Assembly (NCBI GenBank): GCA_017882145.1
Contig: JADGQB010000007.1
Location: 1-39,237 of the forward strand
Reading direction: 5' to 3'
DNA length: 39,237 nt
DNA from: Anaerolineales bacterium
GTDB taxonomy: Bacteria; Chloroflexota; Anaerolineae; Anaerolineales; Villigracilaceae
The number at the start of each line of letters is the position of its first letter. The stretch's first letter is position 1. The notes below the pieces were generated by a model. The model worked only from the letters and a program-made list of their open reading frames with translations. It made no database searches and was not told the DNA's origin. A program made the translations under genes and the position numbers. Below, in pieces: positions 6,482 to 35,334 of the stretch.

Positions 6482-6594
6482 AAGCAGGTAAGATCCACAA
6501 AAGCCTGGCCCGATTCCATGATAACAAAAATGGTGAGCCGTATCCAAATTGAGGCAACCCGATCCGTCATCCTGGCAAATTCATGAAGTTTGAT

Positions 6595-6665
6595 GCCTCC
6601 CCCAAGTGGCGGAGGCAAACATTCCCCGGCAGGTGGATGCGGCCGGGGAGTGTTTAGTATAAGAT
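6595..6665 (+). repeat. Intergenic double-hairpin repeat, copy A
   Basis: gCCTCCCCCAAGTGGCGGAGGcAAACATTCCCCGGCaggtggatgcgGCCGGGGAGTGTTTagTATAAGAT. Confidence 0.85.
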
Positions 6666-6696
6666 ATGAATGTGTGAAGAATCGAAAGGATTAGCC

Positions 6697-7707
6697 ATGT
6701 TCGACCCTATTCTTGTACCGTTGGATGGTTCGCTACTTGCAGAATGCGTCCTGCCGCAGGTAATCGCGATAGGCCAGGCTTTCAATGCAAAAATAGTGCT
6801 GTTGCACGTGATGGACAAGAACCCATCGGATGCTTCAGATAAATTTATTGACCTATTAAACTGGCAAATCAATAAAACGGAAGCAAAGCTGTATCTTGAA
6901 AGAATTACTGATCGGCTTGAAAAAGTGGGATTGCGGACAAAATCAATCGTCCTGGAGGGGCCAGTGGCTGACTCAATCACAGAATTTGCCCGTAGTCAGG
7001 GAATGAAATTGGTAATCCTGAGCAGTCATGGTTCCGGCGGGGTGAGAAAATGCGGAATAAGCAGTGTCACGGATAAAATAACCCTCAGCGCACCAACATC
7101 AGTGCTCATCGTCCGGGTGCATCAAACGCAGGAACAACCTTTAAGGCGAATATTGGTACCATTGGATGGCTCCTGGCGGGCAGAATATTTGCTGCCAATG
7201 GTCTCACTATTGGCGCGATTCCACAATTCACAGGTTCAAATTGTACATGTGGTGAAAACGCCGGAAATGGCCCGCCATCTGCCTATCGCGCAGGAAGATA
7301 TCGATTTATCAAATCGTGTGGTAACACGCAATCGGGAAGAAGCGTTGCAATATCTGGAACAGATCCAATCGGTTTCACCCCTGGCTGCCATCGATGTAAA
7401 AACCCAATTGATCGTCAGTGACAACGCGCCGCTAGCCATCCATGAAATTGTCGATCAGCAGAAAATTGACTTGGTAGCATTGAACGCACACGGTTATTCG
7501 GGAAATAACCAGTGGCCGTATGGAAGCATGGTCAATAATTTTATCCTGTATGGAAAAGTGCCTTTGTTAATTGTTCAAGACCACCCCATCAAAGAAGAAA
7601 CAAGTCAGGTGCAAATCACAGTAAGAGAACAAACGATGCATTTACCTATGCAGGCGGATCTTAGTGGTATTGCTGCCAGGCCAGTCCAAGGGCAGAATTT
7701 CGACTGA
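6697..7707 (+). CDS. Universal stress protein, two UspA domains
   Basis: FDPILVPLDGSLLAE... and RRILVPLDGSWRAE... tandem domains; ATG 6697 preferred over upstream GTG. Confidence 0.9.
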   Translation: MFDPILVPLDGSLLAECVLPQVIAIGQAFNAKIVLLHVMDKNPSDASDKFIDLLNWQINKTEAKLYLERITDRLEKVGLRTKSIVLEGPVADSITEFARSQGMKLVILSSHGSGGVRKCGISSVTDKITLSAPTSVLIVRVHQTQEQPLRRILVPLDGSWRAEYLLPMVSLLARFHNSQVQIVHVVKTPEMARHLPIAQEDIDLSNRVVTRNREEALQYLEQIQSVSPLAAIDVKTQLIVSDNAPLAIHEIVDQQKIDLVALNAHGYSGNNQWPYGSMVNNFILYGKVPLLIVQDHPIKEETSQVQITVREQTMHLPMQADLSGIAARPVQGQNFD

Positions 7708-7744
7708 ATGCCCGGGAGATCGATCAACCGGAAATCCCAGCCCG

Positions 7745-7814
7745 GTCTCCCCCAAGTGGCGGAGGCAAACACTCCCCGGCCGAAGGATGTGGCTGGGAGT
7801 GTTTGTCATAAGAT
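7745..7814 (+). repeat. Intergenic double-hairpin repeat, copy B
   Basis: gTCTCCCCCAAGTGGCGGAGGcAAACACTCCCCGGCcgaaggatgtgGCTGGGAGTGTTTgtCATAAGAT. Confidence 0.85.
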
Positions 7815-7844
7815 AAGGTGAGTTGCCTAACGACGGAGGAACCG

Positions 7845-9524
7845 ATGAATATCAGCCCTCTAGCAGGAATGCCTGTTGACCCTGCCGCGCTGGTTAATGT
7901 ACCCAATCTCATTACAGCCTATTATTCGGAAATTCCCGATCCCTCGGTTCCGGAGCAGCGGGTTGTATTTGGCACTTCCGGACATCGTGGTTCGGCTTTT
8001 GAGAAATCTTTTAACGAATGGCACATCCTCGCCATAAGTCAGTCCATATGCCAATATCGAAAACAGCAGGATATCGATGGTCCCCTGTTCCTGGGTATGG
8101 ATACGCATGCACTCTCGATACCGGCGCTGGCCAGTGCTTTGGAAGTGCTGGCTGCCAATAATGTCGAAGTAATGATCGCAGAAGGGGACGAATATACCCC
8201 GACCCCCGCAATTTCGCTCGCCATCCTTACATATAACCGAGGTCGCAAAACCGGCCTGGCCGATGGAATCGTCATCACACCTTCCCATAATCCACCCCAT
8301 GACGGCGGTTTTAAGTATAACCCGCCCAACGGCGGTCCGGCGGAGGACGTCATTACCGGTTGGATCGAAGCCAGGGCAAACGAGTTTCTCGAGCGCGGGT
8401 TGAAGGGGGTAAACAGGATTTCCCTGGAGAAAGCCCGACAGGCTGCCACGACTCATCGCTACGATTTTCTCAATGCCTATATCGCTGATCTCGCCAATGT
8501 TGTGGATATGGATGTGATCCGCAATGCTCAGATCAGCCTGGGGGTCGATCCTCTCGGCGGCGCAGGGGTTCATTATTGGGGACCGATCGCCGGACACTAT
8601 AAGCTGGACCTGACGGTCGTCAACCGGACCGTCGATCCCACCTTCCGATTCATGACGGTGGATTGGGATGGCCAGATCCGCATGGACCCTTCCTCCCCTT
8701 ATGCGATGCAGCGGTTGATCGGAATGAAGGATCAATATGTAACCGCTTTTGCCTGTGACACGGACCATGACCGGCATGGGATCGTCACACGTACGAAGGG
8801 GTTGCTTCCACCCAACGCTTACCTGGCTGTGGCCATCCACTACCTCTTCCAGCACCGGCCGAAGTGGCCCGGCACGACTGCTGTTGGCAAGACGCTGGTG
8901 AGCAGCCAGTTGATCGACCGCGTCACCGCAAAGCTTGGCCGCAAGCTTTACGAGGTACCGGTGGGCTTTAAGTGGTTTGTGGATGGCTTGCTCGACGGCT
9001 CGCTGGGTTTTGGCGGCGAAGAGAGTGCCGGCGCATCTTTTGTTCGAATGGATGGCGGCGTTTGGACGACAGACAAGGATGGAATCATCCTGGCTTTACT
9101 GGCGGCGGAGATCACTGCCAAAATGGGGCGCGACCCTGGTGAGATCTATGACGACCTAACGCGTGAGTTTGGGGAACCGTTCTACGAGCGCATGGACGCT
9201 CCGGCTACGCCTGAACAGAAAGAGATCCTGGCTAAACTTTCGCCGCAGCAGGTACAGACCAGGGAACTGGCAGGCGAAAGAATCCAGACCATCCTGACCA
9301 GCGCGCCGGGTAATGACGCTCCGATTGAAGGGTTGAAGGTGGTGGCGGAGAACGGCTGGTTCGCAGCACGTCCCTCCGGGACTGAAAACATCTACAAGAT
9401 TTATGCAGAAAGCTTCCAGGGAGCGGACCATCTGCATCGCATCCAGGAGGAGGCGCAGGAAATAGTCAGCGCTGCTCTTGCAGTCGGTGCAACACCGGGA
9501 AATGCTTTGAGGAAAGACCTATGA
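7845..9524 (+). CDS. pgm: Phosphoglucomutase (alpha-D-glucose phosphate-specific)
   Basis: FGTSGHRGSAFEKSFNEWHI, ITPSHNPPHDGGFKYNPPNGGPA, RPSGTENIYKIYAES; SD GGAGGA before ATG 7845. Confidence 0.95.
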   Translation: MNISPLAGMPVDPAALVNVPNLITAYYSEIPDPSVPEQRVVFGTSGHRGSAFEKSFNEWHILAISQSICQYRKQQDIDGPLFLGMDTHALSIPALASALEVLAANNVEVMIAEGDEYTPTPAISLAILTYNRGRKTGLADGIVITPSHNPPHDGGFKYNPPNGGPAEDVITGWIEARANEFLERGLKGVNRISLEKARQAATTHRYDFLNAYIADLANVVDMDVIRNAQISLGVDPLGGAGVHYWGPIAGHYKLDLTVVNRTVDPTFRFMTVDWDGQIRMDPSSPYAMQRLIGMKDQYVTAFACDTDHDRHGIVTRTKGLLPPNAYLAVAIHYLFQHRPKWPGTTAVGKTLVSSQLIDRVTAKLGRKLYEVPVGFKWFVDGLLDGSLGFGGEESAGASFVRMDGGVWTTDKDGIILALLAAEITAKMGRDPGEIYDDLTREFGEPFYERMDAPATPEQKEILAKLSPQQVQTRELAGERIQTILTSAPGNDAPIEGLKVVAENGWFAARPSGTENIYKIYAESFQGADHLHRIQEEAQEIVSAALAVGATPGNALRKDL

Positions 9525-10819
9525 GCGGCCATAAACTAACGGTCGAAGCCGAGCTGGAAAAGCTTCAGCACGTTTCATTCAAATACTTTTTGAATGAAAC
9601 GAATCCAGTCAACGGGTTAGTGCGTGACAGGGACGCAGCAGATTGGCCTGCCAGTATTGCCGCCACAGGTCTGGCTCTGGCATCTTATCCGGTGGCTGTC
9701 GAGCGCGGATTTATGTCGCATGCCGCGGCAGTGGAACGGACGCTGGCAACGCTGCGTTTCTTATGGAACAGCCCGCAAGGCCCTGAACCGGATGCCACCG
9801 GTTACCGCGGATTTTATTATCATTTTCTCGACATGCAGACCGGCCGGCGCGCATGGCAAAGTGAATTGTCAACAGTGGATAGCACTTTTCTGTTGGCAGG
9901 TGCTTTAACGGCGGGAGTTTATTTCAACTCTGATAAACCCGAGGAGCTTGAAATCCGAACCCTCGCCGACGCCATTTATCGCCGGGCGGATTGGCAATGG
10001 GCGCAAGACCAGGGCAGAACGGTTACACACGGTTGGAAACCAGAAGACGGATTTCTAAAGTACTGTTGGGAAGGGTACGATGAGGCAATGCTTCTTTATA
10101 TCCTTGGGCTGGGCTCGCCAACTCATCCGTTGCCTGAGAGCAACTACGCAGCCTGGGCTTCCACATACCGCTGGGAACACTGCTACGGATATGAATATCT
10201 TTTTGCCGGGCCGTTATTCACCCACCAGCTCTCGCATATCTGGATTGATTTTCGCGGCATCCAGGATGAGTTCATGCGCGCAAAAGGCATCGATTATTTC
10301 GAGAACAGCCGTCGCGCCACTTATGTCCAGCAACAGTACGCAATCGACAATCCGCTCAAGTTCACGGGCTATAACGCGTGGTGCTGGGGAATTACAGCGA
10401 GCGATGGCCCCGGCCCCAACACGCTCAAAGTGAACGGTGTCCAACGCCAATTCTTCGATTATATGGGACGTGGTGTGCCATACGGTCCTGACGATGGCAC
10501 GATCGCGCCATGGGCAGTCGTGGCTTCACTGCCGTTTGCACCCGAGATCGTGCTGCCCACGCTGGACTATTTTATTAACCAGGCTAAATTAACAGAAGCA
10601 AACCCCTACGGCTTCAAAGCGACTTATAACCTCACCTACCCGGTAAAATCCAACAATCCCTCAGGCTGGGTATCACCCTGGCATTATGGGCTCAATCAAG
10701 GGCCGATCGTTTTGATGATCGAAAATTATAGTACCGGGCTGGTATGGCGATTGATGCGAGACTGCCCATACATCGCCAACGGCTTGCAGCGAGCCGGTTT
10801 TAGCGGGGGTTGGTTATGA
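9521..10819 (+). CDS. Glucoamylase-like domain protein (Glycoamylase family PF10091, GH144-like), no evident signal peptide
   Basis: WEGYDEAMLLYILGLGSPTHPLP, AGPLFTHQLSHIWIDFRGIQDEFMR, GIDYFENSRRATY; ATGA overlap with pgm. Confidence 0.85.
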   Translation: MSGHKLTVEAELEKLQHVSFKYFLNETNPVNGLVRDRDAADWPASIAATGLALASYPVAVERGFMSHAAAVERTLATLRFLWNSPQGPEPDATGYRGFYYHFLDMQTGRRAWQSELSTVDSTFLLAGALTAGVYFNSDKPEELEIRTLADAIYRRADWQWAQDQGRTVTHGWKPEDGFLKYCWEGYDEAMLLYILGLGSPTHPLPESNYAAWASTYRWEHCYGYEYLFAGPLFTHQLSHIWIDFRGIQDEFMRAKGIDYFENSRRATYVQQQYAIDNPLKFTGYNAWCWGITASDGPGPNTLKVNGVQRQFFDYMGRGVPYGPDDGTIAPWAVVASLPFAPEIVLPTLDYFINQAKLTEANPYGFKATYNLTYPVKSNNPSGWVSPWHYGLNQGPIVLMIENYSTGLVWRLMRDCPYIANGLQRAGFSGGWL

Positions 10820-10949
10820 ACCTTGTATTACTGAAAAAGATTATTTTCCCTCCGCTCTGGAGGAATCAAAAATTCATCATCGCTGACACTTTGGCGGTTT
10901 TAATGCAGCATACCAATAGCGCGGTTCCCTTGGAGGCTCTTCAAATCCC

Positions 10950-12185
10950 ATGGCAACGGTGAAACAAGCTAACCCACGCATCCTAACTATTAATGGCGGC
11001 TCATCGAGCATCAAGATGGCACTGTTCGAAGCCGGCGACTCGCTCCGAAGGACCCTGGAGGGCGGGATTGAGCGGATTGGACAACCAGAAGCCAAATTTG
11101 TAGCGAAAGGATCAAACCAGGCAGACAATTTTACCCGGTCAGTGACTGCGGCGAACCACAGCGAGGCTGTTGGGATACTGATGGATTGGATCGAGGAACG
11201 ATTCCGGCGCGGGGAGTTAACCGCAGTGGGGCATCGCGTGGTACATGGTGGCCCGAAGTATAGCGAACCGCAGCGGATCACAACGGAAATGGTTGAGGAG
11301 TTACACCAGCTTCAGCCTTTCGATCCCGATCATTTACCGGAAGAGATCCTGCTGACCGAGGCATTTCATCACCGGTTTCCAGACCTGGTACAAGTTGCAT
11401 GTTTCGATACGGCTTTTCACCACGAACTGCCGCGCGTCGCACAGTTATTGCCGATCCCGCGCGTTTATGAGGCAAAGGGCGTACGCCGGTACGGGTTTCA
11501 CGGATTGTCGTATGCGTATCTGGTGGAGGAACTGTCGCGCCTGGCTGGGCCTCAGGCGGCGCGCGGCCGCCTCATTCTCGCCCATCTTGGCAACGGGGCG
11601 AGCCTGGCTGCGGTTTATGAAGGCAAATCTGTGGATACCAGCATGGGTCTAACGCCGACCGGAGGTGTGCCGATGAGCACCCGCTCGGGAGATCTCGATC
11701 CCGGCCTGGTCTGGTATCTGGCACGCACCGAAAAAATCACTGCGAAAAAATTCAATGAAATGGTTAATTTCCAGTCGGGGCTGCTGGGTGTTTCTGAGAC
11801 CAGCTCCGACATGCGTGACTTGCTTGACCGTGAAACACGGGACGTACGGGCGGCCGAAGCGGTCGCCGTGTTTTGTTACCAGGTGAAAAAATGGATCGGC
11901 GCATTTGCGGCAGCATTGAGTGGATTGGACACACTGGTTTTCGCGGGCGGCATTGGAGAGAATTCCCCAAAGGTTCGGGCCCGGATCTGCGATGGGTTGG
12001 GATTCCTTGGAATCGAACTCGATGAAAAGCGAAACGCGTCGAATGAAGGCTTGATTTCAACGGTGGCCAGCCGGGTCCCCGTTCGCGTCATGCACACGGA
12101 CGAGGAATGGATGATCGCAAAGATGGTCTGTGGCGTTCTCGGCCTCGGAGCCCCAAAAGAAAGTTCAAGCATGAAAACAAGGTAA
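10950..12185 (+). CDS. ackA: Acetate kinase
   Basis: INGGSSSIKMALF, GHRVVHGG, HLGNGASLAAV, DTSMGLTPTGGVPMSTRSGDLDPG. Confidence 0.95.
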   Translation: MATVKQANPRILTINGGSSSIKMALFEAGDSLRRTLEGGIERIGQPEAKFVAKGSNQADNFTRSVTAANHSEAVGILMDWIEERFRRGELTAVGHRVVHGGPKYSEPQRITTEMVEELHQLQPFDPDHLPEEILLTEAFHHRFPDLVQVACFDTAFHHELPRVAQLLPIPRVYEAKGVRRYGFHGLSYAYLVEELSRLAGPQAARGRLILAHLGNGASLAAVYEGKSVDTSMGLTPTGGVPMSTRSGDLDPGLVWYLARTEKITAKKFNEMVNFQSGLLGVSETSSDMRDLLDRETRDVRAAEAVAVFCYQVKKWIGAFAAALSGLDTLVFAGGIGENSPKVRARICDGLGFLGIELDEKRNASNEGLISTVASRVPVRVMHTDEEWMIAKMVCGVLGLGAPKESSSMKTR

Positions 12186-12203
12186 TCATTGGAGATCCTA
12201 CCG

Positions 12204-12425
12204 ATGAAAAAAGATTTTAAAGTTGGAGATCATGTGGAGTGGAACTCGGAAGCCGGCCATGTCCGAGGAACAATCAAGAAAAAAGTCACATCGGCCATCA
12301 CGTTCAAGGGCTACACAGTCCGCGCCTCGAAGGATGAGCCACAATATTTGATCAAAAGTGACACGACCGACCATCTGGCGATGCATAAGGGATCGGCGCT
12401 CAAGAAAATCAGGAGCAAACCATGA
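12204..12425 (+). CDS. Hypervirulence-associated TUDOR domain (DUF2945-like) small protein
   Basis: [29 protein letters not shown]...[34 protein letters not shown]. Confidence 0.8.
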
Positions 12426-17403: not shown

Positions 17404-17565
17404 GCTGGGTCCATACCAGGGATTCGTAAAGTACTTGAGAGTGAGGTCCATAATGACGAGTGATAGGTCAGAAGCGCGATCAGCGCAGCACATCCGCCAT
17501 GGAATTCCAATATTCACAGGCTTTGTGGAGAGAAGAATGAATAAATCGATGCGGAGCAATCCTAA

Positions 17566-20678: not shown

Positions 20679-20700
20679 CGTTTTCTGGAAGAGGCTAAAA

Positions 20701-21156: not shown

Positions 21157-21218
21157 CGATTCGCTATCACACTGATGCCAGATTTCCTGCCCGACTATTC
21201 ATGAGATGACGGATTTGT

Positions 21219-22112: not shown

Positions 22113-22220
22113 GCCGGCCGCTAATGAAACAATTCCTGAATCAATCTCCAGACTATGCCACCTTCGTAGGTCAGTCTGGTTGAATAAGATAACTGCAAGA
22201 GATTGCAAGGAGATTACAGA

Positions 22221-25070
22221 ATGAATAAAAACCCTTTATTGGACCTTGAGAGCTTTGGACAGAGCATCTGGCTCGATTTCCTGCGCCGCAATGCCCTGGA
22301 TAATGGAGAACTTCAACAGTACATAGACCAGGATGGAGCCAGCGGCCTGACATCGAATCCTTCCATTTTTGAAAAGGCCATCGCGGGCAGCCATGACTAT
22401 GATCAGGCGATCCGTGCCTTGTCTTTGGAGGGCAAAAGTATCCAGGAAATCTACCAGGCGCTGACTGTGGAAGATATTCAACGCGCCGCCGATCTCTTTC
22501 GCCCCAGATACGACCGGCTGGAAGGGCGGGACGGGTTTGTGAGCCTGGAAGTTTCGCCTCAACTGGCGCAGGATACCGCCGGAACGATTTCAGAAGCGCG
22601 CCGCTTATGGGAAGCAGTCGACCGCCCCAATCTGTTCATCAAGGTACCTGCCACCCGGGCGGGCCTGCCGGCCATCCAGCAATTGATTGGGGAAGGGATA
22701 AATGTCAACATCACTTTGCTCTTCGGGTTGCCGCGTTACCGGGAGGTGGCGGAGGCCTACCTGCTCGGGCTGGAAACGCTGGCGGCACGCGGCCGGCCCT
22801 TGGACAGGATCGCTTCGGTAGCGAGTTTCTTCCTGAGCCGGATTGATGTCCTGGTCGACCCCATCCTGGAGAAATTAATGCTTCCGGGAGGGTCCGTCGC
22901 AGAGAAAGCAGCTGACCTGCATGGGGAGGTGGCAATTGCCAGTGCCAGGGTGGCTTATCAGATCTACAAGGAAATCTTTGCAAGCGAGCGTTACCAAAAG
23001 CTCTCCCGCCAGGGTGCCCGTACCCAGCGGCTGCTGTGGGCCAGCACAGGTACCAAGAACCCGGAATACAGCGACGTAAAGTACATTGATACGTTGATCG
23101 GCCGGGACACCATTAACACTATTCCGCTCGAGACCCTGACCGCATACCGGGAGCATGGCAAGCCGGCTGCGCGTTTGGAAGAGGGTACGCAGGAGGCCCG
23201 GCATGTACTGGATGGTTTACTCCAGGCCGGGATTGACCTGGACGCAATCACACAGCAACTGGAAGATGAAGGTGTGAAGAAATTCAGCCAGGCCTTCGAG
23301 CAATTAATGGCTGCATTGCATGAAAAACAAACCGTCTCCTTTCAAGAGCCGCTGGACCGGCAGGTTTTCGGATTGGGAAACTATCAAAAAGCTTTTCATG
23401 AGCAGATTGCCAAGCTCGAAGCGACGCATTTCAGTACCCGTTTGTGGCGGAAGGATCCGGCCCTCTGGAAAAGTGATCCAAAAGAGCAGGATGAGATCCG
23501 TAATAGCCTGGGATGGCTGCATGTAGCCGAAAAAATGGAAGAAAACTTGAGGGAGATCAGTACATTCAAGGATGAGATTCTTAAAGACGGCTTTCGGCAC
23601 GTCGTGCTGATGGGTATGGGCGGCAGCAGCCTGACTCCACTGGTCTTTGAACGCACATTTCCACCGGATCCGCAAGCGTTGCCCCTGACAGTTTTGGATT
23701 CCACCGACCCTGCCACCATCCTGAAAGTTGGACGAGCGCTGCCCATCCAGGATACCCTGTTCATTGTCGCAAGCAAATCTGGCACCACCGCTGAACCGTT
23801 GGCTTTTGCAGAGTATTTCTACCAGAAGGTGAAGAAGATCAAGGGCGAGCGCGCCGGTGAGAACTTCTGCGTGATCACGGACCCGGGCACCCCATTGGTG
23901 AAAATGGCCCGCGAGCGGTCTTACCGTAAAACTTTCCTTAACTTTGCCGATATTGGCGGTCGATACTCCGCCCTTTCGTATTTCGGCCTGGTCCCGGCTG
24001 CCTTGATGGGGGTGAACGTTAGCGAACTGCTGGCGCGTGCCCTGCGTATGCGGCACGCCTGTGACTCATTCGTTCCAACCCGGGAAAACCCGGGATTGAT
24101 GCTCGGCGCTGCGTTGGGCGAACTGGCCTTGAACCATAAGCGCAACAAAGTGACTTTCCTTGTTCCCAAAACGATCGCCTCCCTGGGGATATGGCTGGAG
24201 CAGCTCCTGGCCGAAAGCACCGGGAAAGAAGGCAAAGGGCTCCTACCGGTGGCCGGGGAACCGGTTGGTGAGCCGGAAGTCTATCGAAATGACCGGGTCT
24301 TCATCTACATCCGCATGAAGGATACGACAGATAAAAACTTGCAGACCAGTGTATCCCTTCTTCGTGAAGCCGGCCAACCTGTGATCACCATCTTTTTGGA
24401 TGATCTTCTGGATCTGGGTCAGGAATTCTTCCGTTGGGAGATTGCCACCGCCACCGCCGGTGCGATCCTGGGCATCAATGCATTCAACCAACCCAATGTC
24501 CAGGAAAGCAAGGACAACACGAACCGCCTTCTGGCCATGGTGCGTGCTGAAGGTAAATTGCCCGAAGAAAAACCATCGCTGGTCAAACGTCCCCTGAGAA
24601 TCTATTTCAAGGAATCCGCCTCCACCGTTCCGGCAACGCTGAGACAGTTTCTGGCCAAGGTCCGCCCGGGAGACTACCTGGCATTGATGGCGTATATTGC
24701 CGAGAACCCGGTCAATCAGCGGGCATTGCAGGATATCCGCCGCATGTTGCAGGAACGCCTGCACCTAATTACCACTCTGGGCTATGGCCCGCGCTTCCTG
24801 CATTCCACCGGACAGTTCCATAAAGGCGGCCCAAACAAGGGTCTGTTTTTGCAATTGACTGCCGGAGATGCCCGGGATCTCCCGATCCCTGGCGCACCCT
24901 ATACTTTTGGAGAATTCAAACGCGCCCAGGCGCTGGGGGACTTGGAGGCGTTGCAGAAGCATAGGCGGCGGGTCGGGCATATAGATCTTGGACCGGATAT
25001 TACCCTGGGGTTGGCAGCCTTGAGAAAAGCCCTGGAGTCTGCTTTGAAATCCGTGCAGGTGAAGCCATGA
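22221..25070 (+). CDS. tal-pgi: Bifunctional transaldolase / glucose-6-phosphate isomerase fusion
   Basis: N-term SIWLDFLRR...GASGLTSNPSIFEKAI...NLFIKVPATRAGLPAIQQLIGEGINVNITLLF; C-term VVLMGMGGSSLTPLVFE...VASKSGTTAEPLAF...; ATG 22221. Confidence 0.94.
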   Translation: MNKNPLLDLESFGQSIWLDFLRRNALDNGELQQYIDQDGASGLTSNPSIFEKAIAGSHDYDQAIRALSLEGKSIQEIYQALTVEDIQRAADLFRPRYDRLEGRDGFVSLEVSPQLAQDTAGTISEARRLWEAVDRPNLFIKVPATRAGLPAIQQLIGEGINVNITLLFGLPRYREVAEAYLLGLETLAARGRPLDRIASVASFFLSRIDVLVDPILEKLMLPGGSVAEKAADLHGEVAIASARVAYQIYKEIFASERYQKLSRQGARTQRLLWASTGTKNPEYSDVKYIDTLIGRDTINTIPLETLTAYREHGKPAARLEEGTQEARHVLDGLLQAGIDLDAITQQLEDEGVKKFSQAFEQLMAALHEKQTVSFQEPLDRQVFGLGNYQKAFHEQIAKLEATHFSTRLWRKDPALWKSDPKEQDEIRNSLGWLHVAEKMEENLREISTFKDEILKDGFRHVVLMGMGGSSLTPLVFERTFPPDPQALPLTVLDSTDPATILKVGRALPIQDTLFIVASKSGTTAEPLAFAEYFYQKVKKIKGERAGENFCVITDPGTPLVKMARERSYRKTFLNFADIGGRYSALSYFGLVPAALMGVNVSELLARALRMRHACDSFVPTRENPGLMLGAALGELALNHKRNKVTFLVPKTIASLGIWLEQLLAESTGKEGKGLLPVAGEPVGEPEVYRNDRVFIYIRMKDTTDKNLQTSVSLLREAGQPVITIFLDDLLDLGQEFFRWEIATATAGAILGINAFNQPNVQESKDNTNRLLAMVRAEGKLPEEKPSLVKRPLRIYFKESASTVPATLRQFLAKVRPGDYLALMAYIAENPVNQRALQDIRRMLQERLHLITTLGYGPRFLHSTGQFHKGGPNKGLFLQLTAGDARDLPIPGAPYTFGEFKRAQALGDLEALQKHRRRVGHIDLGPDITLGLAALRKALESALKSVQVKP

Positions 25071-25693: not shown

Positions 25694-25729
25694 TAGTCCG
25701 GGTGATATTCAGGATAAGGAGCGACTCAC

Positions 25730-27235: not shown

Positions 27236-27254
27236 GAAGATGATTAATTCGATA

Positions 27255-27329
27255 GCCCCTCCCCCAACAGGGGGAGGAGAACACTCCCCGGCGGGTGGAT
27301 GCGACTGCGGTAGTTCCGTCGTATGATGA
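27255..27329 (+). repeat. Intergenic double-hairpin repeat, copy C (second hairpin degenerated)
   Basis: CCTCCCCCaacaGGGGGAGG perfect hairpin, AACACTCCCCGGCgggtggatgcg conserved, right arm lost, tail TATGATGA. Confidence 0.75.
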
Positions 27330-27413
27330 ATACATAACTGGTCCTTTGGTTTGACCCAACCGGGTAACGTATTCTAGGGATCCGGATAATTTGATTTGGT
27401 ATGGAGGTGCAAA

Positions 27414-28043
27414 GTGGATATTCCTTTAAATGCTCAGGTTGAATGTACGGACGGTGTCTGTGGTCGTTCAGAGTACGTACTGATAAACCCCGTGATCGAC
27501 CAGGTGACCCATTTGGTAGTGAAAGAAGATTCGTCTCCCAACACAGAGTATATCGTGCCGGTGGATTCTATGGCTGAAACGGTCGCCGGAACGATCCACT
27601 TGCGCTGCACCAAGGCAGAATTGGAAAAGATGGATCCGTTCATAAAAACGACATTCATCGAAGAGAAGCTGCCTGTAATAAATCCTGGCTATGGGGCTGG
27701 TTTGGGAACATACTTCTACTTACCTTTAGTTACTCCCTTAGAAACCGTGCAAGTGCCCGTGGAGAATAAACAGGTCCCGGCGGGCGAGCTGGCTGTACGG
27801 CGCGGTACACGTGTAGAGGCAACGGATGGCTACGTTGGCAAAGTGGACGAATTCGTGGTTAATCCAGAGAGCGGCCACATTACCCATTTGGTGATGCGGG
27901 AAGGACACCTGTGGGGAAAGAAAGATGTGATCATTCCCCTTTCCGCGATGGGCGATACGCATGCGGATACCGTATTTCTGAAGGTCGATAAGCATCAGAT
28001 CGAGTCCCTGCCGACCTTCCCTCTGCACAGGCGCTGGTCCTGA
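27414..28043 (+). CDS. Two-PRC-barrel domain protein
   Basis: Repeated 'EC/EATDG..G.V..FVINP....ITHLVV.E' units; GTG 27414 with GGAGG. Confidence 0.8.
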   Translation: MDIPLNAQVECTDGVCGRSEYVLINPVIDQVTHLVVKEDSSPNTEYIVPVDSMAETVAGTIHLRCTKAELEKMDPFIKTTFIEEKLPVINPGYGAGLGTYFYLPLVTPLETVQVPVENKQVPAGELAVRRGTRVEATDGYVGKVDEFVVNPESGHITHLVMREGHLWGKKDVIIPLSAMGDTHADTVFLKVDKHQIESLPTFPLHRRWS

Positions 28044-28071
28044 GGTTTTTGATTGATGGAGGATTTTTATT

Positions 28072-28377
28072 ATGCCTAGTTTTGGATCACCGTTTTCTGG
28101 TTTTGCGTCCGAGCACAAACTGACCAAAGAAGAATTGGTCCGAGCCGTTCGCTTCCTCGTGGCTTCAGAGTACGAAGCTACGCAGCTATATACACAGCTT
28201 GCTGACTCGATTGACCATCCCTTTGCTCAAGCAGTGTTGAAGGATGTCGCCGACGAAGAGCGGGTCCATGCCGGACAGTTCTTAAAACTCCTCTATCACC
28301 TTGCCCCTGATGAGGAGAAACTTTACGAGAAGGGCGCCAAAGAAGATGAAGAAATCCTGAAAAAAGTGAAGAAGTAA
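28072..28377 (+). CDS. Short ferritin-like protein (encapsulated-ferritin/rubrerythrin-like)
   Basis: LTKEELVRAVRFLVASEYEATQLYTQLADSIDH..AQAVLKDVADEERVHAGQFLKLLYHLAPDEE: Glu and ExxH metal-ligand pattern. Confidence 0.75.
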   Translation: MPSFGSPFSGFASEHKLTKEELVRAVRFLVASEYEATQLYTQLADSIDHPFAQAVLKDVADEERVHAGQFLKLLYHLAPDEEKLYEKGAKEDEEILKKVKK

Positions 28378-28396
28378 CGCGCCAAGGAGAATCGAT

Positions 28397-29572
28397 ATGA
28401 CTCATTATAAATATTTAATCATCGGTGCCGGCATGACCGCAGATGCTGCAGTTAAGGGTATTCGCGAGCTGGATCCAAATGGAAGTATCGCTTTACTTGG
28501 GAATGAAAGCAATCCACCATATGACCGCCCGCTATTAACTAAAGGCCTGTGGAAGGGAAAGCCGCTTGACAGCATTTGGCGTAAGACGGAAGAACATAAA
28601 GCAGATCTATTGCTTGGACGAAAGGTTCTTTCGATCGACCCGCAAAAGAAGCAAGTACAGGATGACCACCAGGAGAGTTATACCTATCAAAAACTGCTCC
28701 TGGCAACCGGCGGAACGCCCCACAAATTGCCGTTTGGCGGAGATAATATCATTTACTTCCGTACCCTGGAGGATTATCGGAGGTTGCGGGGTATGTGTGG
28801 ACAAAACCAGCATTTTGGTGTGATCGGCGGTGGTTTTATTGGCTCAGAGATCGCTGCAGCTCTGACCATGAATGGTGAAAGAGTGACCATGCTGTTCCCC
28901 GAAGAAGGAATTGGGGCACGCGTTTACCCGCGTGAGCTTTCCCTGTATTTGAATGGTTTCTTCTGCACGAAAGGGGTGGAACTGTTGCCCGGTACGAATG
29001 TCAAAAGCCTGAAAAAAAGCAATAATTCAAATCTTCTTATTACCGACCAGGATCATCAAGTTCCGGTTGACTGTGTGATTGCCGGGATCGGGATCCTGCC
29101 GAATGTTGAGCTGGCCCAATCTGCTGGTTTAAAAACTGGAAACGGGATCGTCGTGGACGAAATGTTGCGCACCAACGAACCTGAGATTTATGCCGCAGGA
29201 GATGTGGCGGAATTTAACCAGCTTGTCCTGGGAAAACGCCTGCGGGTCGAACATGAAGACAATGACAACGAGATGGGCAAACAGGCCGGGCGAAACATGG
29301 CTGGCGCCGACGAACCCTACCATCACCTTTCCTATTTTTACTCGGATCTATTCGAACTTGGGTATGAGGCGGTTGGCGAGCTCGATCCCCGAATGGAGAC
29401 TTTTGCGGATTGGGAGGAACCCTTCAAAAAAGGGGTGATCTACTATTTGGCCAATGGGAGGGTACGGGGGGTGTTGCTATGGAATGTTTGGGATACTGTA
29501 CCGGCTGCCCGCCTCCTGATCGCCGAACCAGGTCCATTCATTGCGGCTGACCTGAAAAAACGGCTGCCCTAA
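28397..29572 (+). CDS. FAD-dependent pyridine nucleotide-disulfide oxidoreductase (AIF/ferredoxin-reductase-like)
   Basis: YLIIGAGMTADAAVKGI, LLLATGGTP, GVIGGGFIGSEIAAAL, EIYAAGDVAEF. Confidence 0.87.
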   Translation: MTHYKYLIIGAGMTADAAVKGIRELDPNGSIALLGNESNPPYDRPLLTKGLWKGKPLDSIWRKTEEHKADLLLGRKVLSIDPQKKQVQDDHQESYTYQKLLLATGGTPHKLPFGGDNIIYFRTLEDYRRLRGMCGQNQHFGVIGGGFIGSEIAAALTMNGERVTMLFPEEGIGARVYPRELSLYLNGFFCTKGVELLPGTNVKSLKKSNNSNLLITDQDHQVPVDCVIAGIGILPNVELAQSAGLKTGNGIVVDEMLRTNEPEIYAAGDVAEFNQLVLGKRLRVEHEDNDNEMGKQAGRNMAGADEPYHHLSYFYSDLFELGYEAVGELDPRMETFADWEEPFKKGVIYYLANGRVRGVLLWNVWDTVPAARLLIAEPGPFIAADLKKRLP

Positions 29573-29630
29573 GATCTGAGCCAATGGTGTCGATGATTAG
29601 CCCAATTTTTTATTATCGTAAAGAGATCCC

Positions 29631-29990
29631 ATGGATGAATTAGCGCAACTGCATTGTAGTCGCATAGAAGCGACCACACCACGGCTTAGCGAACCTGAGG
29701 CACACCAATTAATGGCAAAACTGCCTGGCTGGCAGATGCCCGAAAAAGATGGTGAACTGCGCTTGGAGAAAGTTTTCAAGTTCGAAGATTTTCGTAATGC
29801 TCTGGCTTTCACCAACCAGATCGCACAATTGGCCAATGAAGAGGACCATCATCCTTCTATTCTTACTGAATGGGGAAAAGTAACCTTTTCCTGGTGGACC
29901 CACAAAATAAAAGGTCTGCACCAGAACGACTTTATCATGGCCGCAAAAACTGAACAAATTTATGGAGGCCGGTATGCAAGCCATTCTTGA
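29631..29990 (+). CDS. Pterin-4a-carbinolamine dehydratase
   Basis: ANEEDHHPSILTEWGKVTFSWWTHKIKGLHQNDF signature. Confidence 0.88.
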   Translation: MDELAQLHCSRIEATTPRLSEPEAHQLMAKLPGWQMPEKDGELRLEKVFKFEDFRNALAFTNQIAQLANEEDHHPSILTEWGKVTFSWWTHKIKGLHQNDFIMAAKTEQIYGGRYASHS

Positions 29991-30624
29991 ATATAAAGAG
30001 GAAGAACTCAATGAAGTGGTCGATCTGATAAAACGTAAAATCCCTGAGGCGCAGAAGCGCAAATTTGAAGGTTATGCGGCCGAAATCCTTGGCGCCCTCG
30101 GTATGGAATTGAACACTCCGAGTACAGCCGATACCCCCTGTCGTTTCATTCAGGCGTTAATCGATGCCACAGAGGGGTACGACGGGGATCCAAAGTTGAT
30201 CAAAACCTTCCAGACTGAATGCCGCGGCGAACCGGACTGCCATCTGAGCCAGGTGATCGAAGGTCCAATCCGTTTCTTTTCTTTATGCGAGCATCATGCC
30301 TTCCCTTTCTTTGGCGATGCATATGTCGGTTACATCGCCCACGAGAACATCCTTGGCATCTCCAAACTGACTCGGCTCGTGCATCTATTTTCCAAACGAT
30401 TCGCGGTCCAGGAGAGGATTGGGCAGCAGGTGGCCGATACCCTTGAAGCGATGCTCCATCCACACGGCGTTGCAGTGTATCTGGAAGCGCATCATCTCTG
30501 TGTTCAGATGCGCGGGGTCAGGGAATTGGCGCCTCTGACACGCACCACGGTCTGGCGGGGATATTACGCCAATGATGCCTCCCTCCGGGATGAATTTTTT
30601 ACCAGCTGCGGTTTGAAACGATAA
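29974..30624 (+). CDS. folE: GTP cyclohydrolase I
   Basis: FFSLCEHHAFPFFGDAYVGYI, GISKLTRLVHLFSKRFAVQERI, LEAHHLCVQMRGV; ATG 29974 with GGAGG. Confidence 0.94.
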   Translation: MQAILEYKEEELNEVVDLIKRKIPEAQKRKFEGYAAEILGALGMELNTPSTADTPCRFIQALIDATEGYDGDPKLIKTFQTECRGEPDCHLSQVIEGPIRFFSLCEHHAFPFFGDAYVGYIAHENILGISKLTRLVHLFSKRFAVQERIGQQVADTLEAMLHPHGVAVYLEAHHLCVQMRGVRELAPLTRTTVWRGYYANDASLRDEFFTSCGLKR

Positions 30625-30648
30625 GCATTCACCCGGCAGGGATATAGC

Positions 30649-31392
30649 ATGAAAAATCAGGAAGATATGTCCCTCAATGGAAAAACAATCCTCATTACCG
30701 GAGCAGCCCTCCGGATCGGCCGTTCGCTGGCTCTGGCAGTTGCCCAGGCTGGCGGTGATGTTGTAATACACTACGGAAAATCACAAAAAGAAGCGGAAAG
30801 CCTCAAGTTGGAGATCCAGGCAGCCGGCCGGAAGGCATTTATCCTGCAGGCGGACCTGACAGACCCTGCCCAGGTGGTGGATTTGATTCCAAGAGCCTGG
30901 AAGTATGCTCCCATATTTGCCCTTGTGAACAATGCCTCGGTTTTCGAACCGATCGGCTGGGAGGATACCAGCCTGGAGCAATGGAACCTGGCCATGATGG
31001 TCAACCTGACGGCGCCATTCCTGCTCAGCCAGGCCTTCGCCCGCTCTGTGGAACCCGGAGGGGACGGACGCATCGTCAATTTGATCGATTGGCGCGGCCT
31101 TCGCCCCGGGCCTGATCACCTGCCGTATACGATCAGTAATTCCGCCCTGGCCGCCCTGACACACTCTCTTGCCATCGCCCTGGCACCCCGCATAATCGTG
31201 AATGGGCTGGCATTGGGAGCCATTCTGGCCCCAAGCAACGGGGCGCCCACTAAAGTAAACCTCGATCTGATTCCTGCACACAGATGGGCCAACCTGGAAG
31301 AGGTGGGGCAGGCTCTGATCTTTTTGCTGGACGGTCCGGCGTATATTACTGGAGAGATCATTCATGTTGATGGGGGTAGACACCTGGTATAG
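30649..31392 (+). CDS. SDR-family oxidoreductase, FolM/pteridine-reductase-like
   Basis: ILITGAALRIGRSLALAVAQAGGDVVIHYG, NNAS, IVNLIDWRGLRPGPDHLPYTISNSAL, HVDGGRHL. Confidence 0.82.
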   Translation: MKNQEDMSLNGKTILITGAALRIGRSLALAVAQAGGDVVIHYGKSQKEAESLKLEIQAAGRKAFILQADLTDPAQVVDLIPRAWKYAPIFALVNNASVFEPIGWEDTSLEQWNLAMMVNLTAPFLLSQAFARSVEPGGDGRIVNLIDWRGLRPGPDHLPYTISNSALAALTHSLAIALAPRIIVNGLALGAILAPSNGAPTKVNLDLIPAHRWANLEEVGQALIFLLDGPAYITGEIIHVDGGRHLV

Positions 31393-31402
31393 GACTCGAT
31401 AT

Positions 31403-31475
31403 ACCTCCCCCAAGTGGCGGAGATAAACACTCCCCTGCGGATGGATGCGGACGGGGAGTGTTCGTTGTAATATGA
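31403..31475 (+). repeat. Intergenic double-hairpin repeat, copy D
   Basis: aCCTCCCCCAAGTGGCGGAGAtAAACACTCCCCtgcggatggatgcggacGGGGAGTGTTcgttgTAATATGA. Confidence 0.85.
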
Positions 31476-31479
31476 AACT

Positions 31480-31851
31480 ATGACACGCGTATATTTAGCC
31501 GATGCCCAACACGAAGAGCGCTCTGCACTTCACCTGTTGTTGCTGGACCTCAACATGGTCGTGGTCGGTGAAGCCGCCGATTGGACCACTACTTTGGCCC
31601 AGGCCCCAGCTACCTTACTGGATATGCTGTTGGTGGATTGGGACTTGCTGCCGGTTAGTCAGGGAGTGCAATCCCTGGCAGAGTTGCGCCAGGCCTGTCC
31701 AAATGCGATCGTGGTTGTCCTCATCAGTCATATGGATGCCCGCCATCAGGCCGCCCTCTCCGCCGGCGCGGATGCATTTATCAGCAAAGGAGAGACTCCT
31801 GAACGCGTCGCCGAACGCCTGCGAGCCGCGGCAGAAAGCATCCGCATTTAG
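31480..31851 (+). CDS. Stand-alone response-regulator receiver domain protein
   Basis: VYLADAQHEERSALHLLL...LLVDWDLLP...VVVLISHMDARHQAALSAGADAFISKG: REC fold residues. Confidence 0.82.
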   Translation: MTRVYLADAQHEERSALHLLLLDLNMVVVGEAADWTTTLAQAPATLLDMLLVDWDLLPVSQGVQSLAELRQACPNAIVVVLISHMDARHQAALSAGADAFISKGETPERVAERLRAAAESIRI

Positions 31852-31966
31852 GTTTTGCCGGGCGAGTCTCAAAACGGGTAAGTGGTTTGAAAAACCGGCG
31901 CAATAAGCTGCCCCGAGCGCCGGCGCAAACTGGGACAGCTTTTTCAAATGATCGGAGGATCAAACG

Positions 31967-32182
31967 ATGAACAAAGATATATTAACAGGCAAATGGAAAC
32001 AAATCCGAGGCCAGGCCAAAGGCTGGTGGGGCAAACTCACCGACGATGACCTGGACCGGGCCAATGGCAAGCTCGACGTCCTGACCGGCCTTCTTCAGGA
32101 AAAGTATGGCTATACCCGCCAGCGCGCTGCCGATGAGATCGATAAGCGAATGAAGGAGTTTGAGGCCGGCTTGAAAAAGTAA
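31967..32182 (+). CDS. CsbD family stress protein
   Basis: MNKDILTGKWKQIRGQAKGWWGKLTDDDLDRANGKLDVLTGLLQEKYGYTRQRAADEIDKRM. Confidence 0.92.
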   Translation: MNKDILTGKWKQIRGQAKGWWGKLTDDDLDRANGKLDVLTGLLQEKYGYTRQRAADEIDKRMKEFEAGLKK

Positions 32183-32308
32183 ACGCCACCCGTTCTCGCC
32201 AAACGATCGGAGATGCGCCATAACCCCTCCCTCCGGGAAGGTGAATGATTGATTACAAACATACACGGTATTCCGTGCAATCTGGACCTACTCATTGGAG
32301 ATACGAAA

Positions 32309-32575
32309 ATGAATATCATCATCTACTTAATTGTTGCCGCAGTGATCGGTTGGATCGCGACCGAGCTCATGCATGACCGTTCAAACCTGCTCATTAATAT
32401 CGTTGTGGCCGTCCTGGGTGCATTCCTGGCCGGTTACTTCCTCAGCCCCATCTTCCACGTTGGGACGATCAACCAGGCCATCACCATTCCGACCATGCTG
32501 TTGACCCTTGCGGGTGCCGTCATCCTGCTGTTTGTTGTCAATCTCTTCCGCAGAAGCAGCCGGCACTCACGCTAG
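32309..32575 (+). CDS. GlsB/YeaQ/YmgE-family membrane protein
   Basis: IYLIVAAVIGWIATELM...INIVVAVLGAFLAGYFL; three TM segments. Confidence 0.8.
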   Translation: MNIIIYLIVAAVIGWIATELMHDRSNLLINIVVAVLGAFLAGYFLSPIFHVGTINQAITIPTMLLTLAGAVILLFVVNLFRRSSRHSR

Positions 32576-32597
32576 TTCTTTAAGTATCCTGGAAATG

Positions 32598-32653
32598 CAG
32601 GCCGGTTGCATCATTGCAACCCTCGTAAAGGATTGTACGGAAAGACCGGCCTG
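32598..32653 (+). promoter_or_regulatory. Nested inverted repeat in the leader of the YggT-like gene
   Basis: Outer arms CAGGCCGGT/ACCGGCCTG (9 bp perfect) enclosing TTGCA-tcat-TGCAA. Confidence 0.45.
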
Positions 32654-32681
32654 TATGCTTTCATTGGTAAAGGAGTTCAAA

Positions 32682-33080
32682 ATGGCAATCAATACGGTAT
32701 CAGAAGTTCAAACGACCCAAAAAGAACCCGAACGTGAACGACGAATTTTCACCTTCAAAGCCACCCAGGTGGTCTGGCTGTTACTCAGCATATTCGAAGC
32801 ATTGCTGGCGCTGCGCTTCGTCTTGAAACTGATCGGGGCCAACCCGGCCAGCCCGTTTGCGGTTGCTCTTTATGGTTTCACCGGCCTGTTCCTGTTCCCC
32901 TTTACAAGCTTGATCGGGGCACCTGCATTGGGCGGCATGGTATTGGAAGTCTCAACCTTGATCGCCATGCTGGTCTATGGCTTGATTGCATGGGCGGTTG
33001 AAAGAATAATCTTTGTGATCTTCTATCGCCCGCGCGGACCCGTCACGGAAACCACCACCACCGATCAGCACTCTCAATAA
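32682..33080 (+). CDS. YggT-like membrane protein
   Basis: FKATQVVWLLLSIFEALLALRFVLKLIGANPASPFAVALYGFTGLFLFPF; ATG 32682 with AGGAG. Confidence 0.7.
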   Translation: MAINTVSEVQTTQKEPERERRIFTFKATQVVWLLLSIFEALLALRFVLKLIGANPASPFAVALYGFTGLFLFPFTSLIGAPALGGMVLEVSTLIAMLVYGLIAWAVERIIFVIFYRPRGPVTETTTTDQHSQ

Positions 33081-33095
33081 AATAAAGGGAAAAGT

Positions 33096-33287
33096 ATGGA
33101 CAATCCGTCTGATAATTACAAATCGAATCCGGGTACCCAATCGGGCCCCTTACAGACCTTATTAGGGACTATCGAAAGCCTCATCAGACCGGTGATCGGA
33201 TTATTTACATTGACAGATGATGAGCAAGCCAAGGCTGGCATCTATCTGGGCGGCGAAGGCCGTGATTTTGATCAAGGAGATGATTAA
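33096..33287 (+). CDS. Small acidic hypothetical protein (63 aa)
   Basis: ATG 33096, AAAGGGAAAA upstream, stop directly abuts next ATG. Confidence 0.6.
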   Translation: MDNPSDNYKSNPGTQSGPLQTLLGTIESLIRPVIGLFTLTDDEQAKAGIYLGGEGRDFDQGDD

Positions 33288-33641
33288 ATGGAAAACAATA
33301 CCGAAGAGAACGTCTACAACAAGTTTGGACCTTTGGCCGTATTAATTGGCGCATTGGTCGGCGGCCTGGCCGGCGCGACCGCCATGTGGCTGTTTGCTCC
33401 CCAATCCGGAAGACGGACACGCGCCCAAATTCAAAACAAAACCATCCAGTTGCGTGACCAAACGACCAAGAATATCAAGAAAGCAGTTGCGCAGGTTCGT
33501 ACTGAAACCGACAAGCTCACAGCTGGAGTATCGGAGAAGGCCGGAGAACTGAAACAGCTTGGCCAGGATAAGCTCGTTCAACAGATGGACCGTGTGACCG
33601 CAGCTCTGGACGCCGGCAAAACGGTAGTTGAGACTGCTTGA
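33288..33641 (+). CDS. YtxH-domain-like protein
   Basis: GPLAVLIGALVGGLAGATAMWLFAPQSGRRTRAQIQNKTIQLRDQT then coiled-coil-like helix. Confidence 0.78.
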   Translation: MENNTEENVYNKFGPLAVLIGALVGGLAGATAMWLFAPQSGRRTRAQIQNKTIQLRDQTTKNIKKAVAQVRTETDKLTAGVSEKAGELKQLGQDKLVQQMDRVTAALDAGKTVVETA

Positions 33642-33729
33642 GATCAGATAATCCATATCCGGCCTGGCGGTTGACAAGGAACGCTGACCTGAAAACCGCC
33701 ATTCATTTAGGTTTGAGAGGAGCACCACT

Positions 33730-33885
33730 ATGAGATTCACCAAAAATATAGGCTTCCTGTTGTTAGCAATCTTCCTCATCCTGTACGGGCTGATTGCATT
33801 GTTCAGCTTGAGCTTCGCGGGCCTGGGCGTGATCATGGGGCTGCTCGCCATAGCGGCTGGAATCTTCATCCTGCTGGGCCGCTAA
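33730..33885 (+). CDS. Small membrane protein (51 aa), absent from supplied ORF track
   Basis: MRFTKNIGFLLLAIFLILYGLIALFSLSFAGLGVIMGLLAIAAGIFILLGR; AGAGGAGCACCACT before ATG. Confidence 0.75.
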   Translation: MRFTKNIGFLLLAIFLILYGLIALFSLSFAGLGVIMGLLAIAAGIFILLGR

Positions 33886-33943
33886 TCGACCTCCACCCGG
33901 CATTGAGCCGGGACCTACTAGTGACCGATAAAGGAGAAACCTT

Positions 33944-34102
33944 ATGATTTGGACCATCATTGTAATTCTATTAATATTATGGCTGCTCGGCTTTTTCGGC
34001 CGGAGGATCAGCCCAAGCTTCCCGCAGACCGGCGGGTGGATCCATATTCTGATCGTTATTGTGGTCATCCTGGTGATCTTGAACCTCCTGCATGTCATTT
34101 AG
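33944..34102 (+). CDS. Small membrane protein (52 aa), lmo0937/DUF5670-like, absent from supplied ORF track
   Basis: MIWTIIVILLILWLLGFFGRRISPSFPQTGGWIHILIVIVVILVILNLLHVI; AAGGAG before ATG. Confidence 0.82.
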   Translation: MIWTIIVILLILWLLGFFGRRISPSFPQTGGWIHILIVIVVILVILNLLHVI

Positions 34103-34176
34103 TTCCGTGCTTCGACGATCAAACCGGATCTGTCGAAGCGGATGACCTCTTCATTTTGCCAGTCCGCAAAGCAATC

Positions 34177-34206
34177 TGGCCACCCAGTCTAACGGCTGGG
34201 TGGCCA
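34177..34206 (+). terminator. Strong hairpin, possible terminator (no clean T-tract)
   Basis: TGGCCACCCAG-tctaacgg-CTGGGTGGCCA, 11-bp perfect stem. Confidence 0.5.
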
Positions 34207-34276
34207 AGATTGTTGGACGGTATTGATTCCCGGCCTGCCGGGAGATTATTCCTATTCAAAAGAGGAGAACTAGAAT

Positions 34277-34714
34277 ATGAAGAAATGTGAAGAAGTAATG
34301 ACAAAAAAAACCGTTTGCTGCCTGCCAAATGACATGGTGGCAAAAGCGGCACAATTGATGAAACGCGAGAACATCGGTGCGATACTTGTAATTGAAGATC
34401 AACAGACTCAAAAGTTGGTCGGTATCGTAACCGATCGTGATCTGGCTTTGAAGATTGTGGCTGAAGAGCGCGATGCCAAATCCACGAAAGTGGAGTCGAT
34501 AATGTCGCGCAAGGTGGTGACTTGCCGCGCTGAAGATGATTTGCAGAAAGCGCTGGACGCGATGTCCGAGCATCAATTGCGCCGCATTCCAGTTGTGGAC
34601 AACGGCAACAAGATTTTGGGGATTATTGCCCAGGCGGATGTGGCAACTCGCGTTAACCAACCGGAAAAAACTGCCGAAGTAGTAAAGCAAATTTCGCAAG
34701 CTAACGAGAAGTAA
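34277..34714 (+). CDS. CBS-domain-pair protein
   Basis: CEEVMTKKTVCCLPNDMVAKAAQLM..GAILVIED..LVGIVTDRDLALKIV; VESIMSRKVVTCRAEDDLQKALDAMSEHQLRRIPVVDN. Confidence 0.92.
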   Translation: MKKCEEVMTKKTVCCLPNDMVAKAAQLMKRENIGAILVIEDQQTQKLVGIVTDRDLALKIVAEERDAKSTKVESIMSRKVVTCRAEDDLQKALDAMSEHQLRRIPVVDNGNKILGIIAQADVATRVNQPEKTAEVVKQISQANEK

Positions 34715-34763
34715 TAAGCTTGTTATCGTCAAGAAAACGATTGATAAGCAAAAGAGATAAGAA

Positions 34764-35072
34764 ATGACTGACAAAAGAATGAGCAAGTCCCAGTTCGTGG
34801 CAGCCCTTTCCGAGAAAAGTGGCCTCACTAAGTTGCAAGCCACCTCCGCGCTCGATACGATCAACGCGATCGTGGCCGAGCAACTCGGTAAGCGCGGACC
34901 CGGCGAAGTTATCCTCCCAGGCCTGCTTAAACTCAATGTCGTAGACAAGCCGGCTACGCCTAAGCACGAAGGCATTAACCCATTCACCAAGCAGCCGATG
35001 ACCTACAAGGCAAAAGCGGCCAGCAAAGTGATCAAGGTAAGGCCTCTCAAAGCGCTGAAAGACTCCGTATAA
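34764..35072 (+). CDS. HU-family DNA-binding protein
   Basis: MSKSQFVAALSEKSGLTKLQATSALDTI...PGLLKLNVVDKPATPKHEGINPFTKQPMTYKAKAASKVIKVRPL. Confidence 0.87.
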   Translation: MTDKRMSKSQFVAALSEKSGLTKLQATSALDTINAIVAEQLGKRGPGEVILPGLLKLNVVDKPATPKHEGINPFTKQPMTYKAKAASKVIKVRPLKALKDSV

Positions 35073-35078
35073 GTATCT

Positions 35079-35124
35079 GCCAACTGCCTGCCTTCTTGCA
35101 AGTGCGGTTGGCGACTTCTTTTCT
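35079..35124 (+). terminator. Rho-independent-like terminator after HU gene
   Basis: GCCAACTGC ... GCGGTTGGC stem followed by gacTTCTTTTCTT. Confidence 0.6.
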
Positions 35125-35224
35125 TGCCGGACAGTCAGATAAACTGCGACCCGGTTTTCTAGTCGGGTGGCCAGGGGTGTTTTTCTACTTCCGGGCCATT
35201 TACATGTAATTTGTAGGAGTTGCG

Positions 35225-35297
35225 GCCTCCCCCAAGTGGTGGAGACAAACACTCCCCGGCGGATGGATGTGGCCGGGGAGAGTTTATTGTATGATAA
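35225..35297 (+). repeat. Intergenic double-hairpin repeat, copy E
   Basis: gCCTCCCCCAAGTGGTGGAGAcAAACACTCCCCGGCggatggatgtGGCCGGGGAGAGTTTattgTATGATAA. Confidence 0.85.
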
Positions 35298-35334
35298 GTT
35301 TATGCTTTACATATGGAAGGCTAGAGTTGTCTCG

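Follow-up and report, generated by a model that had tools for sequence, protein, structure and literature searches.

A repeated intergenic element of Anaerolineales genomes, probable promoter of a stress regulon not recognised before

The DosR/DevR system of Mycobacterium and the OsdR system of Streptomyces are described in two reports (PMC5069765, PMC10034137) as pairs of a NarL-type response regulator and a kinase that act at short palindromic sites to control universal stress proteins (USPs) and other stress genes. The stretch analysed here, 39,237 nucleotides (nt) of the Anaerolineales contig JADGQB010000007.1 (hereafter ‘the window’), carries five intergenic copies of a 79-nt element comprising a near-palindromic site (H1), a longer palindrome (H2) and the motif TANNAT. 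In many uncultured Chloroflexota (Anaerolineales) it has the appearance of a promoter serving a stress regulon not recognised before. We consider it probable that the copies are activator-dependent, sigma-70-type promoters of a single Anaerolineales regulon, with H1 as operator, a NarL/FixJ response regulator as activator, and an H2 that also acts as a terminator. A large and mostly uncultured Chloroflexota group would thereby gain a directly testable prediction: a general-stress regulon whose operator, promoter and candidate two-component regulator are all named.

The likeness to the DosR/DevR and OsdR systems lies in the NarL-type regulator with its kinase, the stress genes and the palindromic site, and the candidate regulator's relatives of solved structure include DevR (3c3w), NarL and, closest of all, VraR (5hev, E 7e-63). 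The element differs in belonging to another phylum, in its putative operator (CTCCCCCAAGTGGCGGAG, against AGGGCCGATCGGCCCT for the OsdR site), and in forming a fixed 79-nt unit with a palindrome around the −35 region, for which the accessible text on DosR and OsdR gives no counterpart. The H1 consensus is unlike the DevR/OsdR consensus quoted in PMC5069765 and does not represent a site of that type. The element may work like a DosR-type regulon, of which it is at most a candidate member. VraR/LiaR-type response regulators, the closest among solved structures, have the same REC-GerE layout and a HisKA_3-type kinase, but VraR serves cell-wall stress in Firmicutes, whereas the targets here are general-stress genes. 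CsbD, GlsB/Transgly_assoc, YtxH, USP and CBS proteins among the targets also recall the sigma-B regulons of Bacillus, although control here seemingly runs through an activator at a TANNAT promoter and not through a sigma-B motif. Our literature searches, which most subscription journals lay outside, found no paper describing the element.

All five copies are present at the positions given in the earlier note on this DNA, and chance falls far short of explaining them. As the note had claimed, all lie on the forward strand and between genes; further copies, whose absence was part of what it said would refute it, are present elsewhere in the genome. A covariance model built from the 13 copies of the window's 4.15-Mb genome, which plain BLAST had found beforehand, recovered 13 strong copies there (E about 1e-17 or better) and one weak one, and gave matches in 22 of 61 relatives. 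Across the order, 30 of 241 genomes (about one in eight) have the element at E≤1e-7. A strict pattern run against GTDB species genomes picked out at least 113 stretches, with titles almost all naming Anaerolineales, Anaerolineae or Chloroflexi and a few naming Herpetosiphon, Bacteroidetes or Methylomicrobium metagenome-assembled genomes. As a control, the element pattern read in reverse gave zero matches. Copies outside the window's genome number in the hundreds and are clustered, with eight within about 20 kb in one genome (G017). Rfam gave no match at the gathering threshold in the window, nor at E≤1 over copies 1 and 2, in keeping, as far as RNA families go, with the earlier note, which recognised no named family in it.

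Multiple dispersed copies, some tightly clustered, would suit a mobile or MITE/REP-like repeat carrying an incidental promoter; the earlier note had proposed a mobile or domesticated cassette. However, copies within a genome are no more alike than copies from different genomes (identity 0.672 versus 0.669) and so give no sign of recent spread. Nearly all precede a gene on their own strand (201 of 208 called downstream genes), and the element co-occurs with a regulator, as described below. A mobile repeat is hence a most improbable explanation, and membership of a MITE or REP family was rejected on the equal within- and between-genome identity.

Conservation within the element is confined to a rigid layout. 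Over 221 copies aligned without gaps, a set partly selected by a pattern that fixes some of the same positions, the constrained positions are H1 (CTCCCCCAAGTGG plus NNNAG), the 5′ arm of H2 (ACTCCCC), the loop GGATG and TANNAT, and the profile is identical in 61 copies selected without the pattern. After the CTCCCCCAAGTGG-NNNAG of H1 comes H2, a palindrome whose loop contains GGATG, and then, exactly 25 nt past GGATG, TANNAT, which is present in nearly all copies. An ATG opening a reading frame of at least 60 amino acids (aa) lies exactly 6 nt past TANNAT in 43 copies, while every other offset up to 59 accounts for five at most; most of the 43 frames belong to the same REC-only family and are not 43 independent events. 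Because of this ATG peak, we take TANNAT as a −10 box and the genes that begin there as probably leaderless; transcription would begin some 7 nt past the box, in many cases at the A of the ATG. The earlier reading of the A/T tail as a −10 element agrees with both the fixed spacing and the ATG positions, and a published report (PMC3160421) describes Chloroflexi genes that are leaderless and have a TAtaaT signal. With the start placed at that ATG, GGATG falls near −35, and some three turns of the helix upstream of it H1 is centred near −66. A canonical TTGACA was not found at 16–18 nt; GGATGYGG occupies that position, which suggests an activator-dependent promoter.

The same geometry bears on the proposal that the element is a structured, riboswitch-like leader RNA in the 5′ untranslated region of the downstream genes. 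Some copies fold stably (z to −5.5) and H2 covaries, as such an RNA would; but the leaderless starts place the onset of transcription past both hairpins, the pairing of H1 is not kept, Rfam returned no match and there is no excess of G-U pairs. We regard a leader RNA as very unlikely, and the riboswitch class was dropped on the start geometry and the missing H1 pairing.

Two features are absent from the earlier note: the conservation of H1 is one of sequence and not of a hairpin, and the occurrence of the element follows that of a two-component response regulator. The arms of H1 show no covariation (best antidiagonal mutual information 0.02, against 0.10 for H2), and the variants ACTAG and CCTAG of its 3′ arm disrupt the pairing. 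Every one of the 12 exact H1 motifs in the window's genome lies inside an element, with none for a reversed control pattern, and ten of twelve do so in G017. At two loci (L139 and L161), two divergent copies have one H1 in common, each with its own H2 and −10, as is expected of a near-palindromic protein site. Since H1 is conserved by sequence instead of pairing, is never found alone in the window's genome and is shared by divergent copies, it reads as a candidate protein operator rather than a hairpin; the operator (YCTCCCCCAAGTGGCGGAGR) would be centred near −66. A role for H1 as a second terminator hairpin was discarded for lack of covariation. The divergent pairs span L139:1547-1680 and L161:1517-1649, and the pair in L139 is flanked on one side by a CsbD-like gene.

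Clustering of neighbouring genes turned up a NarL/FixJ response regulator (27 loci) and a PAS-GAF-HisKA_3 kinase (21 loci). In most of the 27 loci the regulator's stop codon lies 1–50 nt ahead of a same-strand copy. By Pfam domains, adjacency and profile, a REC-GerE regulator with a HisKA_3 kinase is found near the targets, as in a NarL/FixJ regulon. Taking matches of 375 bits or more as full orthologs and those of 310–349 bits as more distant relatives, we found the element in 24 of 24 genomes with an ortholog (22 full, 2 truncated) and in 6 of the 217 others among the 241 genomes of the order (Fisher p=8e-28, a value that overstates independence, the genomes being related, in a pattern that is patchy within genera and families). 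None of the 21 genomes with only a distant relative has the element at E≤1e-7; in G041, which has such a relative, a weak element directly follows the regulator. Paralogs of the regulator show no association with the element. The NarL/FixJ-type regulator with its PAS-GAF kinase is the best candidate and most likely the activator, and we infer that it would bind H1 and activate transcription, its operon usually ending beside a copy. One ortholog match (G236:C41:5257-5805) contains an in-frame TAG, and that genome still has four elements.

Several observations weigh against this assignment. Nine genomes have the element and no detected ortholog; they are mostly but not all fragmented assemblies, and include G003 (9 copies, 96% complete), G226 (97%) and G037 (99%). 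Joint inheritance as a single linked block could account for part of the co-occurrence. In the window's own genome (G000), where the regulator lies at C273:5217-5894, the copy after it is degenerate and keeps only GATGGATG (= GATGGATGCG) and the −10, and the reading frame before it (L229:4717-5238, on the same contig) encodes an ATPase domain only, of 173 aa, unlike the PAS-GAF-HisKA_3 partner seen elsewhere. An alternative sigma factor or another activator might instead control the element, with the response regulator merely a linked member of the regulon: the GGATG at −35 is non-canonical, REC-only proteins are likewise regulon members, and the nine genomes without an ortholog point the same way. 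Against another regulator stand the profile just described and the lack of association of the paralogs, an H1 dyad of about 20 bp that suits a NarL-type dimer, and the fact that the response-regulator gene is never the first gene past an element. We regard it as doubtful, and retain the NarL/FixJ regulator as the preferred activator.

H2 behaves differently from H1. Its arms covary strongly and give the top antidiagonal signal among registers (0.101, against 0.036 for the next). It resembles the intrinsic terminators found between tandem genes in its A-rich 5′ flank, GC-rich stem and U-rich 3′ flank (about 5 T in the 8 nt past the stem) and in its place just past stop codons, the end of a co-directional upstream gene lying within 40 nt of the copy in 109 of 189 cases. 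It differs from them in enclosing the GGATG near −35 in the promoter that follows, in abutting the −10 of that promoter, and in not favouring G-U pairs. Counting H2 as broken where its fold energy is above −12 kcal/mol, roughly one copy in four has lost it with the rest intact, so the promoter core does not require H2. The proportion is 7–17% where a co-directional upstream gene ends less than 40 nt away, 29–36% where it ends further off and 50% next to a divergent upstream gene (Fisher p=0.01, Spearman p=5.5e-5; a set limited to a single copy per locus gives rho 0.27, p 0.005). Outside H2 the two classes of copies are intact to the same degree (22.4 and 22.0 of 23 positions). In G043, a comparable hairpin with a run of seven Ts comes after a relative of the regulator.

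The earlier proposal that H2 terminates the upstream gene gains plausibility from the U-rich 3′ flank, the abutting stop codons and the loss of pairing where that gene is distant or divergent, and we consider such termination likely. Each copy would then divide two units in a tandem stress-gene array, and a palindrome that ends one gene while enclosing the −35 region of the next would be an unusual layout for tandem genes. Two results count against the terminator. The stem holds 237 G-U pairs versus 275 A-C, both equally depleted relative to shuffles in every context (in a test not calibrated on known terminators), so that the RNA-strand signature of G-U tolerated over A-C is absent from its evolution; and H2 is retained in half of the divergent copies. 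A role purely as an RNA terminator was favoured first by the covariation and weakened by this comparison.

Because the arms covary without a G-U signature, a role for H2 at the DNA level was kept in play: the copies would be the same regulon promoters, but H2 would be a second palindromic operator, or a cruciform exposing the loop GGATG, and not a terminator. The H2 dyad is strictly Watson-Crick and strand-symmetric in all contexts, divergent copies included, and its 5′ arm CTCCCC repeats the H1 half-site and is kept when the 3′ arm decays (82% versus 57%). Set against this are the finding that pairing varies with how far away the upstream gene is and which way it runs, the U-rich flank that suits a terminator, and the quarter of copies that have lost H2 alone; we hold the DNA-level role only as a tentative alternative. 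The specific proposal that the H2 arms are extruded or held as a cruciform, or act as a co-varying palindromic operator, so as to present GGATG near −35 seems to us improbable; were it true, promoter activity would be coupled to supercoiling or to arriving upstream transcription, and each copy would be both insulator and switch. Template-switch correction of a quasi-palindrome could also be the source of the strand-symmetric covariation.

The first genes downstream of the element resemble a general-stress regulon. REC-only proteins are the commonest class (40 of 158 scanned), followed by GlsB-like proteins (8), dodecins (8), PAS-GGDEF proteins, CsbD (4), histidine kinases, USPs, AI-2E transporters, CBS proteins and others. 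To these the window contributes PPK2, a run of sugar-phosphate genes, and rubrerythrin-like, YtxH and HU-like genes. The REC-only protein may partner the kinase, either in feedback or as a phosphate sink. Members of the REC-only family that follow an element have a conserved start, MTRVYLADA, and are nearly always leaderless by position.

In the window, the anchor CTCCCCCAA occurs at 6597, 7747, 27259, 31405 and 35227, and the copies, all on the + strand, align without gaps over 79 nt except for copy 2. The genes that follow them, likewise on the + strand, are those the earlier note had named. Copy 1 (6594..6672) has H1 at 6596-6615, H2 at 6617-6655, GGATG at 6635-6639 and its −10, TAAGAT, at 6660-6665, and is followed by a tandem USP gene (PF00582; 6670..7707, with its start at 6670 or 6697). 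Copy 2 (7744..7821; 7745 in the earlier note) has H1 at 7746-7765, H2 at about 7767-7804, GGATG at 7785-7789 and TAAGAT at 7809-7814; one nt is deleted from the 3′ arm of its H2, which makes the spacing from GGATG to TANNAT 24 and not 25. A phosphoglucomutase/phosphomannomutase gene (7845..9524) follows, starting at 7845 with GGAGG ahead of it.

Copy 3 (27256..27334; 27255 in the earlier note) has H1 at 27258-27277, the H2 region at 27279-27317, GGATG at 27297-27301 and TATGAT at 27322-27327, and precedes a PRC-barrel gene (27396..28043; called start 27396 or 27414). The common double-hairpin architecture that had been described holds in overall layout, but not for this copy, in which H2 pairing is lost and H1 is a different, fully paired variant (CCTCCCCCAACAGGGGGAGG). 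Copy 4 (31402..31480) has H1 at 31404-31423, H2 at 31425-31463, GGATG at 31443-31447 and TAATAT at 31468-31473, ahead of a REC-only response regulator gene (31480..31851). Copy 5 (35224..35302) has H1 at 35226-35245, H2 at 35247-35285, GGATG at 35265-35269 and TATGAT at 35290-35295, ahead of a gene for a lipoprotein-like protein (35302..36273) that matched no Pfam family. Both of these last genes would be leaderless by position, their ATG (31480 and 35302) lying exactly 6 nt past TANNAT.

The run of sugar-phosphate genes after the phosphoglucomutase gene extends to 27235. It also holds phosphoketolase, acetate kinase, transketolase, RpiB and G6PD genes, and within it one reading frame (22203-25070) joins transaldolase and phosphoglucose isomerase domains. 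Elsewhere in the window, 631-930/1461-1760 and 2290-2589/4389-4688 are two diverged tandem duplicate pairs of about 70% DNA identity, apparently PAP2 and YegS/DAGK-type genes.

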